Assembly: GCA_021798275.1 (NCBI GenBank)
Contig: JAJZMK010000006.1
Location: 1 to 63,037 of the forward strand
Origin: Actinomycetes bacterium
GTDB taxonomy: Bacteria; Actinomycetota; Acidimicrobiia; Acidimicrobiales; Bog-793
Direction: 5' to 3'
Length of the DNA stretch: 63,037 nucleotides
Position numbers and translations under genes: made by a program. Shown here one piece after another: positions 14,789-62,560 of the stretch. The notes under the pieces were generated by a model. The model was not told the origin of the DNA, searched no databases, and saw only the letters and a program-made list of their open reading frames with translations. Numbering within the stretch: the first letter of the stretch is position 1; each line of letters begins with the position of its first letter.

Positions 14789-16354
14789 ATGGCTGAATAC
14801 GATGAAACACAGAGTAACGATCATGTGGGCAAACAGCAGAACGAAGACATTTTCAATTCACAGGCTTCTAGAGAATTCACACAAGGTGAAAATCAAAATC
14901 ACATCAACGAAGATCTACAGGCCACAACTTCTCAATGGCAGAACACACAACCCTCGGATGCCGCTTCGGCCACGCCTGAGGCCGGCGCTTTCAAAGATGC
15001 GACAGCCCAGCCGCCTTTTGCCTCCCCCTCAATCGAGCCCGGGCCCGTCGTCAATTCATGGATACCCCCCGGAACACAACAGCAATCTTTTCCTCCTCAT
15101 GGGCAGGTTCCCGTAAGTTCTCCTGAGCATAAAATATACAAGCGTTTGCTTATTTCGACCTTGTCCGTGGCTATATTGGCCGGTGGTTTGGGAGCGGGTC
15201 TCGGTTTTGCTTTTGGCTCACAAGGGATACCGAAGGGTTCCTCTGGAGCGGTGGCATCCGGTCCTATAGGATCCAACTCCGCTTCCACCCCAACCACCTC
15301 TTTAGCACCACAGGCAAGCAGCAGTACGAATCTCGTTCAAAAAGTGGCCAATGAAGTGGAACCGGCGGTTGTAGATATCAATACCGTTGTAGAATCGGAA
15401 AACCCCGGCTCTGAACAGGCTGCCGGTACAGGCATGATCATTTCGCACAACGGCTTGATTATGACCAACAATCACGTTATCAACCAGGCGACACAAATCA
15501 GCGTAACCATAAAAGGCTACCCGGGTAGCTACCCGGCTACCGTTGTGGGAGAGGATCCCACCGATGACGTGGCTTTGCTGAAAGTAAAAGGTTTTTCGAA
15601 TTTGCCAACGGTAACCTTTGCCAATTCTTCCCGCGTGACTCTGGGAGAAGGCGTAATAGCCATCGGCAACGCCCTTGGTCAAGGAGGCACCCCTACGGTC
15701 GTTACAGGTGAAGTTTCCGCTTTGGGTCGTAAAATCAATGCCACCGATCAACTTTCTTCAGTTACGGAAACTCTGTATAACATGATACAGACCACAGCTC
15801 CCATAGAGCCGGGGGATTCTGGCGGGCCACTTGTCAATACAGCGGGACAAGTCATCGGCATGGATACCGCCGCATACAACTCTGGCGTCGGATCTGGGTC
15901 TACCCAGGGATACGCCATTCCGGTAAACAGGGCTTTACGGATCGTCACGGACATTAAAAACGGTAACGCTACGGGCGGTATCGTTATAGGCGAAGCCGCC
16001 TTTATCGGAATATTCTACACTCCACCGCAGGCCAGCGTGCCGTCCAGTCCTTTTGGTGGGCTTTTTGGAAACCTAGGCGGAATCGGTTCTTCCGGTTCCT
16101 CCGGTAGTTCCTCTTCACCTCAGCCGCAAGGTGTTCAGATATCTCAACTTGCTCAAAACGGAGCTGCGCAAAAAGCCGGTTTACAGCCGGGTGACATCAT
16201 CACCGCAGTAAACGGAGTGGCCACTCCGACCGGAACCGCACTGCACGACGAAGTAGCCAAATTCAAACCGGGTGACACCATAAGCGTGACTTATATATCG
16301 ACTACTGGTGCTAAGAATACAGTCTCACTTACACTCGGCGGACTTCCCGATTAG
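14789..16354 (+). CDS. HtrA/DegP-like trypsin-fold serine protease with PDZ domain
   Basis: One TM segment; TGMIISHNGLIMTNNHVI, DPTDDVALLKV, IEPGDSGGPLVN; C-terminal PDZ ...AGLQPGDIITAVNG. Confidence 0.95.
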   Translation: MAEYDETQSNDHVGKQQNEDIFNSQASREFTQGENQNHINEDLQATTSQWQNTQPSDAASATPEAGAFKDATAQPPFASPSIEPGPVVNSWIPPGTQQQSFPPHGQVPVSSPEHKIYKRLLISTLSVAILAGGLGAGLGFAFGSQGIPKGSSGAVASGPIGSNSASTPTTSLAPQASSSTNLVQKVANEVEPAVVDINTVVESENPGSEQAAGTGMIISHNGLIMTNNHVINQATQISVTIKGYPGSYPATVVGEDPTDDVALLKVKGFSNLPTVTFANSSRVTLGEGVIAIGNALGQGGTPTVVTGEVSALGRKINATDQLSSVTETLYNMIQTTAPIEPGDSGGPLVNTAGQVIGMDTAAYNSGVGSGSTQGYAIPVNRALRIVTDIKNGNATGGIVIGEAAFIGIFYTPPQASVPSSPFGGLFGNLGGIGSSGSSGSSSSPQPQGVQISQLAQNGAAQKAGLQPGDIITAVNGVATPTGTALHDEVAKFKPGDTISVTYISTTGAKNTVSLTLGGLPD

Positions 16355-16373: not shown

Positions 16374-16422
16374 GTATAAAACCATCCCGCCCTGCTTTCT
16401 GCAGGGCGGGATGGTTTTATAC
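16374..16422 (+). terminator. terminator-like hairpin after htrA
   Basis: 22-bp perfect stem gtataaaaccatcccgccctgc-tttct-gcagggcgggatggttttatac. Confidence 0.85.
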
Positions 16423-18939: not shown

Positions 18940-18985
18940 CTAAACACAACAAGACATCCCTTGCGGGATGTCTTGTTGTGTTTAG
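18940..18985 (-). terminator. 21-bp perfect hairpin downstream of the DoxX-like gene
   Basis: ctaaacacaacaagacatccc-ttgc-gggatgtcttgttgtgtttag. Confidence 0.75.
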
Positions 18986-19004: not shown

Positions 19005-19595
19005 TTAGGCTACCTTAGGGGTGCTCCTCTTGGCTGTCCTATGCGTCAGAGCACTTTTGAATAATCTTCCGTCGTGTGTCTGGCGATATGCCCTGATGAA
19101 ACCATCGATTCCGATTTCAGAAGAAGTTTTCCAAGTGGCAAGGATAATAACGGCAGCTAAGGCATAGAAGGCGTTCACACTGGCCGTGCCTGACATGATA
19201 TAGGTGAAGTTGAGCAGTGCTCCTGCTGTTGCGGCAGCAGGTGTCAAAAACCCTACGGCCAGTCCAAGCCCGACTAAAAATTCGCTGACGGCTACCAGCA
19301 CTGCGACCCAGTCTGAGTTGGGAACAACGAATCCGTGTAGGAAGCTGCCCCACCAACTGTAAGCCGGGACTCCGTGTGAAGCAAATCCGGCCACGGCAAT
19401 TCCGTTGTTATGTAAAAATCCGGCGTTCTCTGCGCCCCACAGTTTGGCAACGCCAGCCTGTATCCACATAACTCCAAGCCATATACGAAGGGCTGACCAA
19501 ACAATTCCCATTACTTTGGAGTGGGTAAGGTAATGCCATGTTCGTGGCGTAGCGATGTCCTCTGGTTCTGCTATCAATGAAGCAATCTTGTTCAT
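19005..19595 (-). CDS. DoxX/DoxD-like membrane protein
   Basis: ALRIWLGVMWIQAGVAKLWGAENAGF...VSEFLVGLGLAVGFLTPAAATAGALLNFTYIMSGTASVNAF. Confidence 0.82.
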   Translation of the reverse strand: MNKIASLIAEPEDIATPRTWHYLTHSKVMGIVWSALRIWLGVMWIQAGVAKLWGAENAGFLHNNGIAVAGFASHGVPAYSWWGSFLHGFVVPNSDWVAVLVAVSEFLVGLGLAVGFLTPAAATAGALLNFTYIMSGTASVNAFYALAAVIILATWKTSSEIGIDGFIRAYRQTHDGRLFKSALTHRTAKRSTPKVA

Positions 19596-24355: not shown

Positions 24356-24455
24356 TTTCTAGATGATAGCAATAAAACCGTCATTTGGCGTAGGTCTTAA
24401 GTCACAAATAAGATCTATGGGGGCTTGACAGATGTGTTATAACGAAATTAGACAA

Positions 24456-24490
24456 CTCAACAGGTCTAGGGGGGGACTAGACCTGTTGAG
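24456..24490. other. 14-bp perfect hairpin in a divergent promoter region
   Basis: ctcaacaggtctag-gggggga-ctagacctgttgag, flanked by ttgaca (24425-24430) and tgtcaa (24493-24498). Confidence 0.7.
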
Positions 24491-24860
24491 TATGTCAATA
24501 GGGGGCTTTATTTTAGGGAATGTATGGCTTTCTTACTTGCTTCGGTATTTAATCGTCCCGATTTTATAGAATCTGAAATACCCATATGCAATCCACACAT
24601 TTCGTTGGTCCGACATATTCTCTGGCGGCCTAAGTATCAATATATCACATTGAGTAGTTGCTTTGCCACTTAATAAGCCAAATTTTTTAGAATTTTGCTA
24701 AAAATTATTTTTTCTATATTATGTGGTCACGCCAGTTCCAAGAATAGACATGTGCTTTTGGTATCCAAATTAAGCTTTCGAATTAGCAGTCATTGCCACA
24801 AGTGTTTTATGACGGAGTACGCTGTCTGTATAGTAATAAAGTCCCACAAGGAGCAAAGTA

Positions 24861-60924: not shown

Positions 60925-61347
60925 GTGGCAGTAAAACTCCGCCTGATGCGGATGGGGAAAAAGAAACAGCCGACCTATCGTATAGTTGTGGCTGATGCTC
61001 GTTCTCCGCGTGACGGAAAATTCATCGAAGTAATTGGGACGTATGCCCCAAGGAAAGACCCTGCCGAAATAATAGTCAATAACTCACAAGCGAGTGATTG
61101 GCTGTTGAAAGGTGCCCAGCCTACGGAAACGGTTAAAAAATTATTGGAACTGTCTGGAGCCTGGGAAGAATACTCCAAGGCCAGAGGTGTCGAATACAAG
61201 CCTAGCAAGCCTTTATTGGTAGCCACCAAGCCTTCTGCTGTAAAAACTCCTCCCGCTGTAGTTGAGGTTAAAGCGGATAAGGATCAGAATGTAACCGTTG
61301 ATGCGGAAGACGCACCTACTTCTTCAAGTGAGACCGAGGTTGAATAA
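60925..61347 (+). CDS. rpsP: 30S ribosomal protein S16
   Basis: [48 protein letters not shown] start. Confidence 0.97.
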
Positions 61348-61838
61348 TGACACAATCAAGCGATCCAAGCGCCCCTTTATTTGCAGAGCCGCAGTTTAAC
61401 GAATCGTCGCTTGCAGATGAGGGTAATGACGATGTGCAGGACCCAGAGATCCCAGATGAGTTGGAAACAGCCGAAAAACTAGGAGATGACCAAATGGTTG
61501 AGGAAGAATTGCCCGAAGAAATCAGCGGATCAGAAGATGAAGTATCTGTTGCCAACCAGGCATCGGACGAAGTCGAGTCGGATGGTAACCTCATTCCCGG
61601 TGGACGCTCCAAAGAAGTGTTGGAATTTTTGGCACGTAAGCTTGTCGAAGATCCCGATGCCGTTGAAGTAGACATCGAGCCTGCTAAATCAGGTGCAAAG
61701 CTGCTACTCAAAGTGGCTCCCGATGACATGGGTCGCATGATAGGCCGTAAAGGACGCGTGATTCAAGCCGTTAGGGTGGTTGTGAGAGCCGCCGCAGCCC
61801 GCGACAAGACAGATGCTACTGTCGAAATCGTAGACTGA
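61347..61838 (+). CDS. khpA: KH-domain RNA-binding protein (KhpA-like) with long acidic N-terminal extension
   Basis: SKEVLEFLARKLVEDPDAVEVDIEP...VAPDDMGRMIGRKGRVIQAVRVVVRAAAARDKTDATVEIVD; lies between rpsP and rimM. Confidence 0.92.
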   Translation: MTQSSDPSAPLFAEPQFNESSLADEGNDDVQDPEIPDELETAEKLGDDQMVEEELPEEISGSEDEVSVANQASDEVESDGNLIPGGRSKEVLEFLARKLVEDPDAVEVDIEPAKSGAKLLLKVAPDDMGRMIGRKGRVIQAVRVVVRAAAARDKTDATVEIVD

Positions 61839-61860: not shown

Positions 61861-62358
61861 GTGTCTTCGACATTCGATGACGATCTTCTTGAGGTCGGTG
61901 TCATAATAAAGCCACACGGTGTCAAAGGATATGTTGTGGTACTTCCTATTACAAACGTCATGGAGAGGTTTGTAATAGGAAGTACTTTTTTTACCGAGCA
62001 AGGTGAAAAAGAAAGAAGAGAACTGCTGGTAGAGCAGGTGGCCGAATACAAGAACGGTTTCCTGATCAAATTCCAGGGTTACGAAGACATGTCTGCTGCC
62101 GAAACGCTGAGAAATATCAAACTTCTGGCCAAGCCCCTCGATATTGAAGACAGCGAAGCGTTGTTTGTTCACCGTTTGGTCGGCCTAAATGTCGTTGATC
62201 AAGATGGGATACAAAGGGGTACGGTTGAGTACGTGCAAGCTAACCCAGCCAGTGATCTATTGGTTTTGGAAACCGGAGGGATGATACCTCTTGTTTTTGT
62301 TGAGTCGGTAACGGATCAAGATATTTTTGTACGAATTCCCGAAGGGCTTTTAGAGTAG
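61861..62358 (+). CDS. rimM: ribosome maturation factor RimM
   Basis: LLEVGVIIKPHGVKGYVVVLPITNVMERFVIGSTFF; C-terminal PRC-like LLVLETGGMIPLVFVESVTDQD; GTG start. Confidence 0.95.
   Translation: MSSTFDDDLLEVGVIIKPHGVKGYVVVLPITNVMERFVIGSTFFTEQGEKERRELLVEQVAEYKNGFLIKFQGYEDMSAAETLRNIKLLAKPLDIEDSEALFVHRLVGLNVVDQDGIQRGTVEYVQANPASDLLVLETGGMIPLVFVESVTDQDIFVRIPEGLLE
61939..61992 (+). terminator. intragenic terminator-like hairpin within rimM
   Basis: gtacttcctattacaaac - 11 nt - gtttgtaataggaagtac followed by ttttttt. Confidence 0.7.
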
Positions 62359-62375
62359 CAAATTCCGGCCGGAGT

Positions 62376-62501
62376 CATTTGAATCTCCGATACTCAGATT
62401 GAATAGTCGGAAGTCAAATGCTGAGATCAACATGATTTTGATGTATTGGACCGTTAGAGCGGCCCGCCATGAGATCTCTTGAAGATTTCTCATGTCCAAT
62501 A
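62376..62501 (+). ncRNA. candidate structured leader between rimM and trmD
   Basis: Nested stems catttga/tcaaatg + tccga/tcgga (62376-62420) and tattggac/gtccaata + atgag/ctcat (62444-62501). Confidence 0.35.
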
Positions 62502-62560
62502 TTCCAAGCCGGGCTTGTTTCGATAATCTAATCCAACGGTGCTAAGGTTGAATTGATAAT

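Follow-up and report, generated by a model that had tools for sequence, protein, structure and literature searches.

The rimM gene in the window (the whole 63,037-nt stretch analysed, which is one complete contig) contains an 18-bp perfect inverted repeat within its sense codons, and we think it probable, though well short of certain, that this coding palindrome arose by mutation, through a short-range template switch inside a working gene. The hairpin is unshared by relatives while other coding palindromes occur in the same genome, which makes a by-product of DNA copying the likeliest reading, and its resemblance to a stop signal is probably incidental rather than regulatory.

The two arms, GTACTTCCTATTACAAAC and GTTTGTAATAGGAAGTAC, flank an 11-nt loop, and seven T's adjoin the 3′ arm with zero spacer (Table 1). 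The initial annotation had described this arrangement, and both its coordinates and the perfect pairing proved exact. If one mismatch is tolerated, the arms extend to 21 nt around a 5-nt loop. In the folding test proposed there, the segment reached -31.1 kcal/mol in RNAfold versus -12.3 ± 2.8 kcal/mol for dinucleotide shuffles (z = -6.7; none of 200 shuffles folded as stably), and the hairpin, at -29 to -31 kcal/mol, was retained when folded in contexts of up to about 1 kb. Only 6 of the 18 stem pairs are G-C, so the stability comes from length, and the stem lacks the G+C-rich base of intrinsic terminators, whose usual stems of 5–10 bp are shorter than this A+T-rich one. The U-tract is confined to the sense side: ATGTTGTG precedes the 5′ arm, and the antisense strand therefore has none. 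The start-codon region of rimM folds separately and is not predicted to be sequestered by the hairpin, and neither a competing antiterminator pairing nor a leader peptide was seen in folds of up to 1 kb.

Table 1. Coordinates of the rimM hairpin, its operon and examples of further coding palindromes (window positions unless another contig handle is given)
Feature	Coordinates	Strand	Description or basis
rpsP (S16), upstream operon gene	60925..61347	+	ORF and profile match
khpA (KH-domain RNA-binding protein, acidic N-terminal extension)	61347..61838	+	ORF and profile match
rimM (ribosome maturation factor), hairpin host	61861..62358	+	GTG start; ORF; TIGR02273 E 2.4e-25; PF01782
5′ arm	61939..61956	+	codons 27-32, GTA CTT CCT ATT ACA AAC = V L P I T N
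Loop, 11 nt	61957..61967	+	GTCATGGAGAG
3′ arm	61968..61985	+	codon 36 third base to codon 42 second base, R F V I G S T
T7 tract	61986..61992	+	Thr42 third base and Phe43-Phe44 codons (TTT TTT)
trmD, downstream, truncated by contig end	62561..63037	+	ORF and profile match
Further coding palindrome	L148:5626-5663
Further coding palindrome	L108:3230-3260
Further coding palindrome	window:37153-37184
Further coding palindrome	window:56184-56211

The hairpin spans codons 27–42 and thus falls within the PF01782 match (RimM residues 12–90), inside the RimM N-terminal domain. The protein alignment passes through it without a gap, in agreement with the earlier suggestion that both arms are native to RimM and not an insertion; a mobile palindromic element of the REP/RPE type, or an insertion, was rejected on the basis of the single site and the ungapped alignment. 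In the stem, third codon positions pair among themselves and first positions pair with second, and each arm (V-L-P-I-T-N and F-V-I-G-S-T) therefore limits the amino acids that the other can encode. Since the pairs include amino-acid-changing first and second positions, such a stem would not arise from selection acting only on synonymous sites. Within the operon, the hairpin starts 101 nt past the khpA stop, the khpA end and rimM being separated by 22 nt, and the T7 tract lies 125–132 nt into rimM. The acidic extension of KhpA amounts to ~88 residues ahead of the KH domain, and the congeners have extended forms too. Between rimM and trmD lies a strongly structured gap of 202 nt (62359-62560), compared with about 141 and 158 nt for the two congeners; a promoter or leader of trmD could reside there. 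No Rfam match was found for either the rimM hairpin or this gap.

The palindrome is beyond chance given the fixed protein. A Markov-1 null produced perfect repeats with 13-bp arms 0.05 times per window and longer ones never, and with the RimM peptide fixed and synonymous codons sampled at genome usage the probability of all 18 pairs was 3.25e-5. Within the genome sample (stretches totalling 924 kb, window included) no other gene contains a perfect palindrome as long. Pure coincidence, in which codons and protein chanced upon the palindrome and then the T7 tract with no mutational or selective cause, could draw on predisposing pairs in the genus (Pro29/Gly40, CC facing GG, with Gly40 in 2 of 3 members; Asn32/Phe37, AA facing TT) and on T-rich codons already present in a congener, but a probability of 3e-5 given the protein, together with the absence of arms of at least 15 bp from 24 permutations of 714 kb, makes it quite improbable. 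The hairpin is present once in the genome, the remaining matches being single arms with 3 mismatches. That uniqueness bears on a DNA-level or protein-binding element (an operator, a recombination site or a cruciform site) as opposed to an RNA signal: such an element would suit the perfect dyad symmetry, but with no sibling sites in the genome, no Rfam match and no conservation we find it hardly credible.

Perfect palindromes are also in excess in other genes of this genome. Counting arms of at least 12 bp with loops of 3–20 nt over 714 kb of called coding sequence, we observed 13 palindromes versus 1.17 in 24 within-gene synonymous permutations, a roughly eleven-fold excess, and 3 with arms of at least 15 bp versus 0 in the permutations. 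The checked hosts encode a UvrD helicase, Der/EngA, SMC, DNA polymerase III alpha (dnaE), a YfhO-like protein, an acyltransferase and a methyltransferase, and a U-tract accompanies the rimM palindrome only, with none at the other checked coding palindromes. Two of the 13 are doubtful as coding: one lies past the congener-shared region at the C-terminus of an ABC protein (L135), and the other, a 17-bp perfect palindrome (L119:15340-15376) just upstream of the domain of a TetR-family regulator, is possibly the operator of that gene, its start codon having been called too early. The congener samples held 1 and 3 coding palindromes in 232 and 277 kb, and an E. coli control held 0 in 240 kb, where about 4.4 would be expected at the rate of the present genome. 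As far as sequence counts can indicate, the excess likely has a mutational cause, and the fact that unrelated genes contain coding palindromes lacking U-tracts fits a mutational origin of the one in rimM. Loss of SbcCD found no support as the cause of the many palindromes, as below-cutoff SbcD-like matches were present in 20 of 20 family genomes tested, including this one.

These further palindromes also weigh on the reading of the repeat as an assembly or sequencing artefact, a fold-back chimera. The source genome is metagenome-assembled (2.09 Mb in 156 contigs, 85.7% complete), and a search for another, independent assembly of the species found none, both of which favour an artefact; against it stand an intact reading frame and domain, arms of just 18 bp that enclose an internal loop, a distance of 1 kb to the contig end and comparable palindromes on other contigs, so that we consider it very improbable.

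Template switching that makes perfect hairpins and alters several adjacent coding residues has been documented (PMC8794818, PMC8604942, PMC6649704). In rimM, an imperfect inverted repeat in the present lineage would have become the perfect 18-bp repeat, probably through a template switch during replication (quasipalindrome correction) in which one arm was recopied as the reverse complement of the other, beside a pre-existing T-rich stretch. As such an event would leave it, the palindrome has perfect arms, is in frame and retains the residues of the family, and the 13 coding palindromes point to like events elsewhere in the genome. With TTT TTT as the codons that follow, it mimics an intrinsic terminator, and it would have been kept because RimM still works, its effect on transcription being, we infer, tolerated rather than selected.

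Comparison with relatives bears on both the origin and the function of the hairpin. The codon alignment of rimM covered 26 relatives, namely the two congeners (G001 and G002, the genus comprising three genomes) and 24 further family members, and none of these contains a comparable hairpin. At homologous sites, G002 forms 9 of the 18 stem pairs and G001 forms 4, so the conservation or covariation of the arms envisaged in the initial annotation did not appear, as far as these sequences allow it to be tested. The congeners are 53–55% identical in RimM, a distance at which the ancestral state of the arms is not reconstructable, and the genome contig and viral contig collections searched yielded no closer relatives. 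Two arm residues, Leu28 and Thr42, are unlike those of either congener, and in the loop Val33 replaces an Arg found in 24 of 26 relatives; the T-rich codons pre-exist, with CTTTTT at the homologous codons of G002 (sequence L006). Identity to G002 is 13/18 in the 5′ arm and 7/18 in the 3′ arm, the pattern expected had the 3′ arm been rewritten. Against G001, rimM shows no asymmetry (identity 9/18 vs 10/18, or 0.50 vs 0.56), and the arm-asymmetry test pooled over eight coding palindromes, which addresses arm rewriting directly, was not significant (p = 0.15). We count these last two results against a template-switch origin, along with the fact that the longest coding palindrome happens to adjoin a T7 tract, which is suggestive in itself, and the distance of the congeners, which leaves room for a recent functional gain.

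Like an intrinsic terminator, the hairpin has a stable stem with a U-tract directly behind it, although it sits within rimM and not at the end of a gene. On a d'Aubenton-Carafa type score, which combines a U-tract weight with stem energy per base, it reached d = 28, placing it 10th in the 924 kb behind nine better hairpins and 1st among sense-coding sites, and in this respect the terminator-like character first assigned to it held up. Hairpins scoring at least 10 numbered 22 near 680 gene 3′ ends (within 120 nt) versus 15 in about 720 kb of sense coding sequence, making them roughly ten-fold denser per kb after gene ends, and this enrichment suggests that the U-tract hairpin signal is probably meaningful in the present genome, where about 3% of genes carry such a hairpin at the 3′ end versus 15% in E. 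coli with the same script. Coding sites scoring at least 20 were similarly rare on the two strands (3 sense vs 2 antisense), giving no sign of class-wide selection for coding-strand terminator-like hairpins, and 10 of 39 sense terminator-like hairpins fell in the first 200 nt of genes, with no clear 5′ concentration. In the absence of a close ribosome, RNA polymerase could stop at about 61990–61992 with some efficiency, whereas during translation the stem would be melted or covered by ribosomes. In the account of Li et al. 2015 given in PMC7858274, intragenic terminators close to ORF starts work efficiently and following ribosomes suppress those further in; by analogy with this pattern, some premature termination about 125 nt into rimM is plausible. 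The hairpin may thus terminate some untranslated rimM transcripts.

The initial annotation had proposed that the structure could attenuate rpsP-khpA transcripts ahead of rimM-trmD, and in its species-specific form this reading holds that the hairpin and U7 end rpsP-khpA transcripts early in rimM unless prompt rimM translation relieves them, lowering rimM-trmD relative to rpsP. The top sense-coding terminator score, a stem stable in all contexts with U7 beside it, the position near the ORF start and the low probability of the pairing given the protein all speak for it, and E. coli rimM and trmD have ribosome densities about ten-fold below those of rpsP and rplS (PMC4378010), which makes lowered output of these genes a plausible target. 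But the hairpin is absent from both congeners despite their common gene order ffh-rpsP-khpA-rimM-trmD, so the comparison does not support attenuation; no leader peptide or alternative antiterminator pairing was seen, and similar palindromes lie in other genes without U-tracts. We therefore regard an attenuator as unlikely, if worth keeping in view, and found no literature on regulation of rimM by intragenic terminators. A combined form, in which a one-step template switch produced a lineage-specific ribosome-sensitive terminator in sense codons, governing how much ribosomal protein is made relative to maturation and tRNA-modification enzymes, seems to us distinctly unlikely. A constitutive terminator that ends the rpsP-khpA transcript, with rimM-trmD served by another promoter, would agree with the strong stem and U7 so soon after the khpA stop, but the site lies inside the conserved N-terminal domain, past the rimM start and the KPHG motif, where every rimM transcript crosses it and strong constitutive termination would truncate rimM itself. 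A consensus scan found no promoter-like site downstream of the hairpin, and we consider this arrangement highly improbable.

The origin by template switching that we favour has a close likeness in the coding palindromes of Nematomorpha mitochondria (PMC6649704), which are perfect in-gene repeats with native residues in both arms, vary between species and have been ascribed in a proposal to template switching. The rimM palindrome corresponds to their 'phase 3', in which third positions pair with third, the most constrained arrangement, but it sits on a bacterial chromosome, has 18 bp compared with up to 284 bp, and carries a U-tract. Yeast template-switch multinucleotide mutations (PMC8604942) and RNA hairpins made by template switching (PMC8794818) share the perfect arms and possibly the several neighbouring amino-acid differences, but there the ancestor is known from close relatives, unlike in rimM. 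PMC7815308, and Li et al. 2015 as cited above, describe ORF-internal terminators of E. coli that likewise have a hairpin and U-tract early in the coding sequence and are expected to be translation-sensitive; the rimM stem differs in being A+T-rich and 18 bp long, and in being predicted from sequence as opposed to having a mapped 3′ end. Finally, the E. coli rpsP-rimM-trmD-rplS operon has the same genes under non-coordinate control, with rimM and trmD output below that of the ribosomal proteins (Wikstrom and Bjork 1988, as related in PMC4378010), but control there is translational and mRNA levels are flat. No such hairpin is present in the E. coli rimM start region.

If the resemblance is incidental, the rimM hairpin illustrates that template switching can place a terminator look-alike in an important gene, and it warns against equating each intragenic hairpin and U-tract with regulation. 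If it terminates in vivo, one mutational event would have created a translation-sensitive control point in a conserved operon. The excess of coding palindromes is a more general lead than the rimM hairpin.

Two perfect stems in the window are longer than that of rimM, and both are intergenic. The first (16374-16422) is a 22-bp palindrome with a 5-nt loop, 20 nt past the ORF end at 16354, and with a score of about 39 on either strand it is terminator-like, resembling a bidirectional terminator. The second (18940-18985) is a 21-bp palindrome with a 4-nt loop and no U-tract, just 3′ of the minus-strand ORF 19005-19595. A 15-bp perfect palindrome with a GGGGGGA loop (24455-24491) lies between two divergent ORFs. 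Elsewhere in the genome, a methyltransferase (L149:5608-6501) is 100% identical in protein sequence to one in G001, whereas other searched orthologues are about 43–80% identical, which suggests recent transfer or cross-binning.
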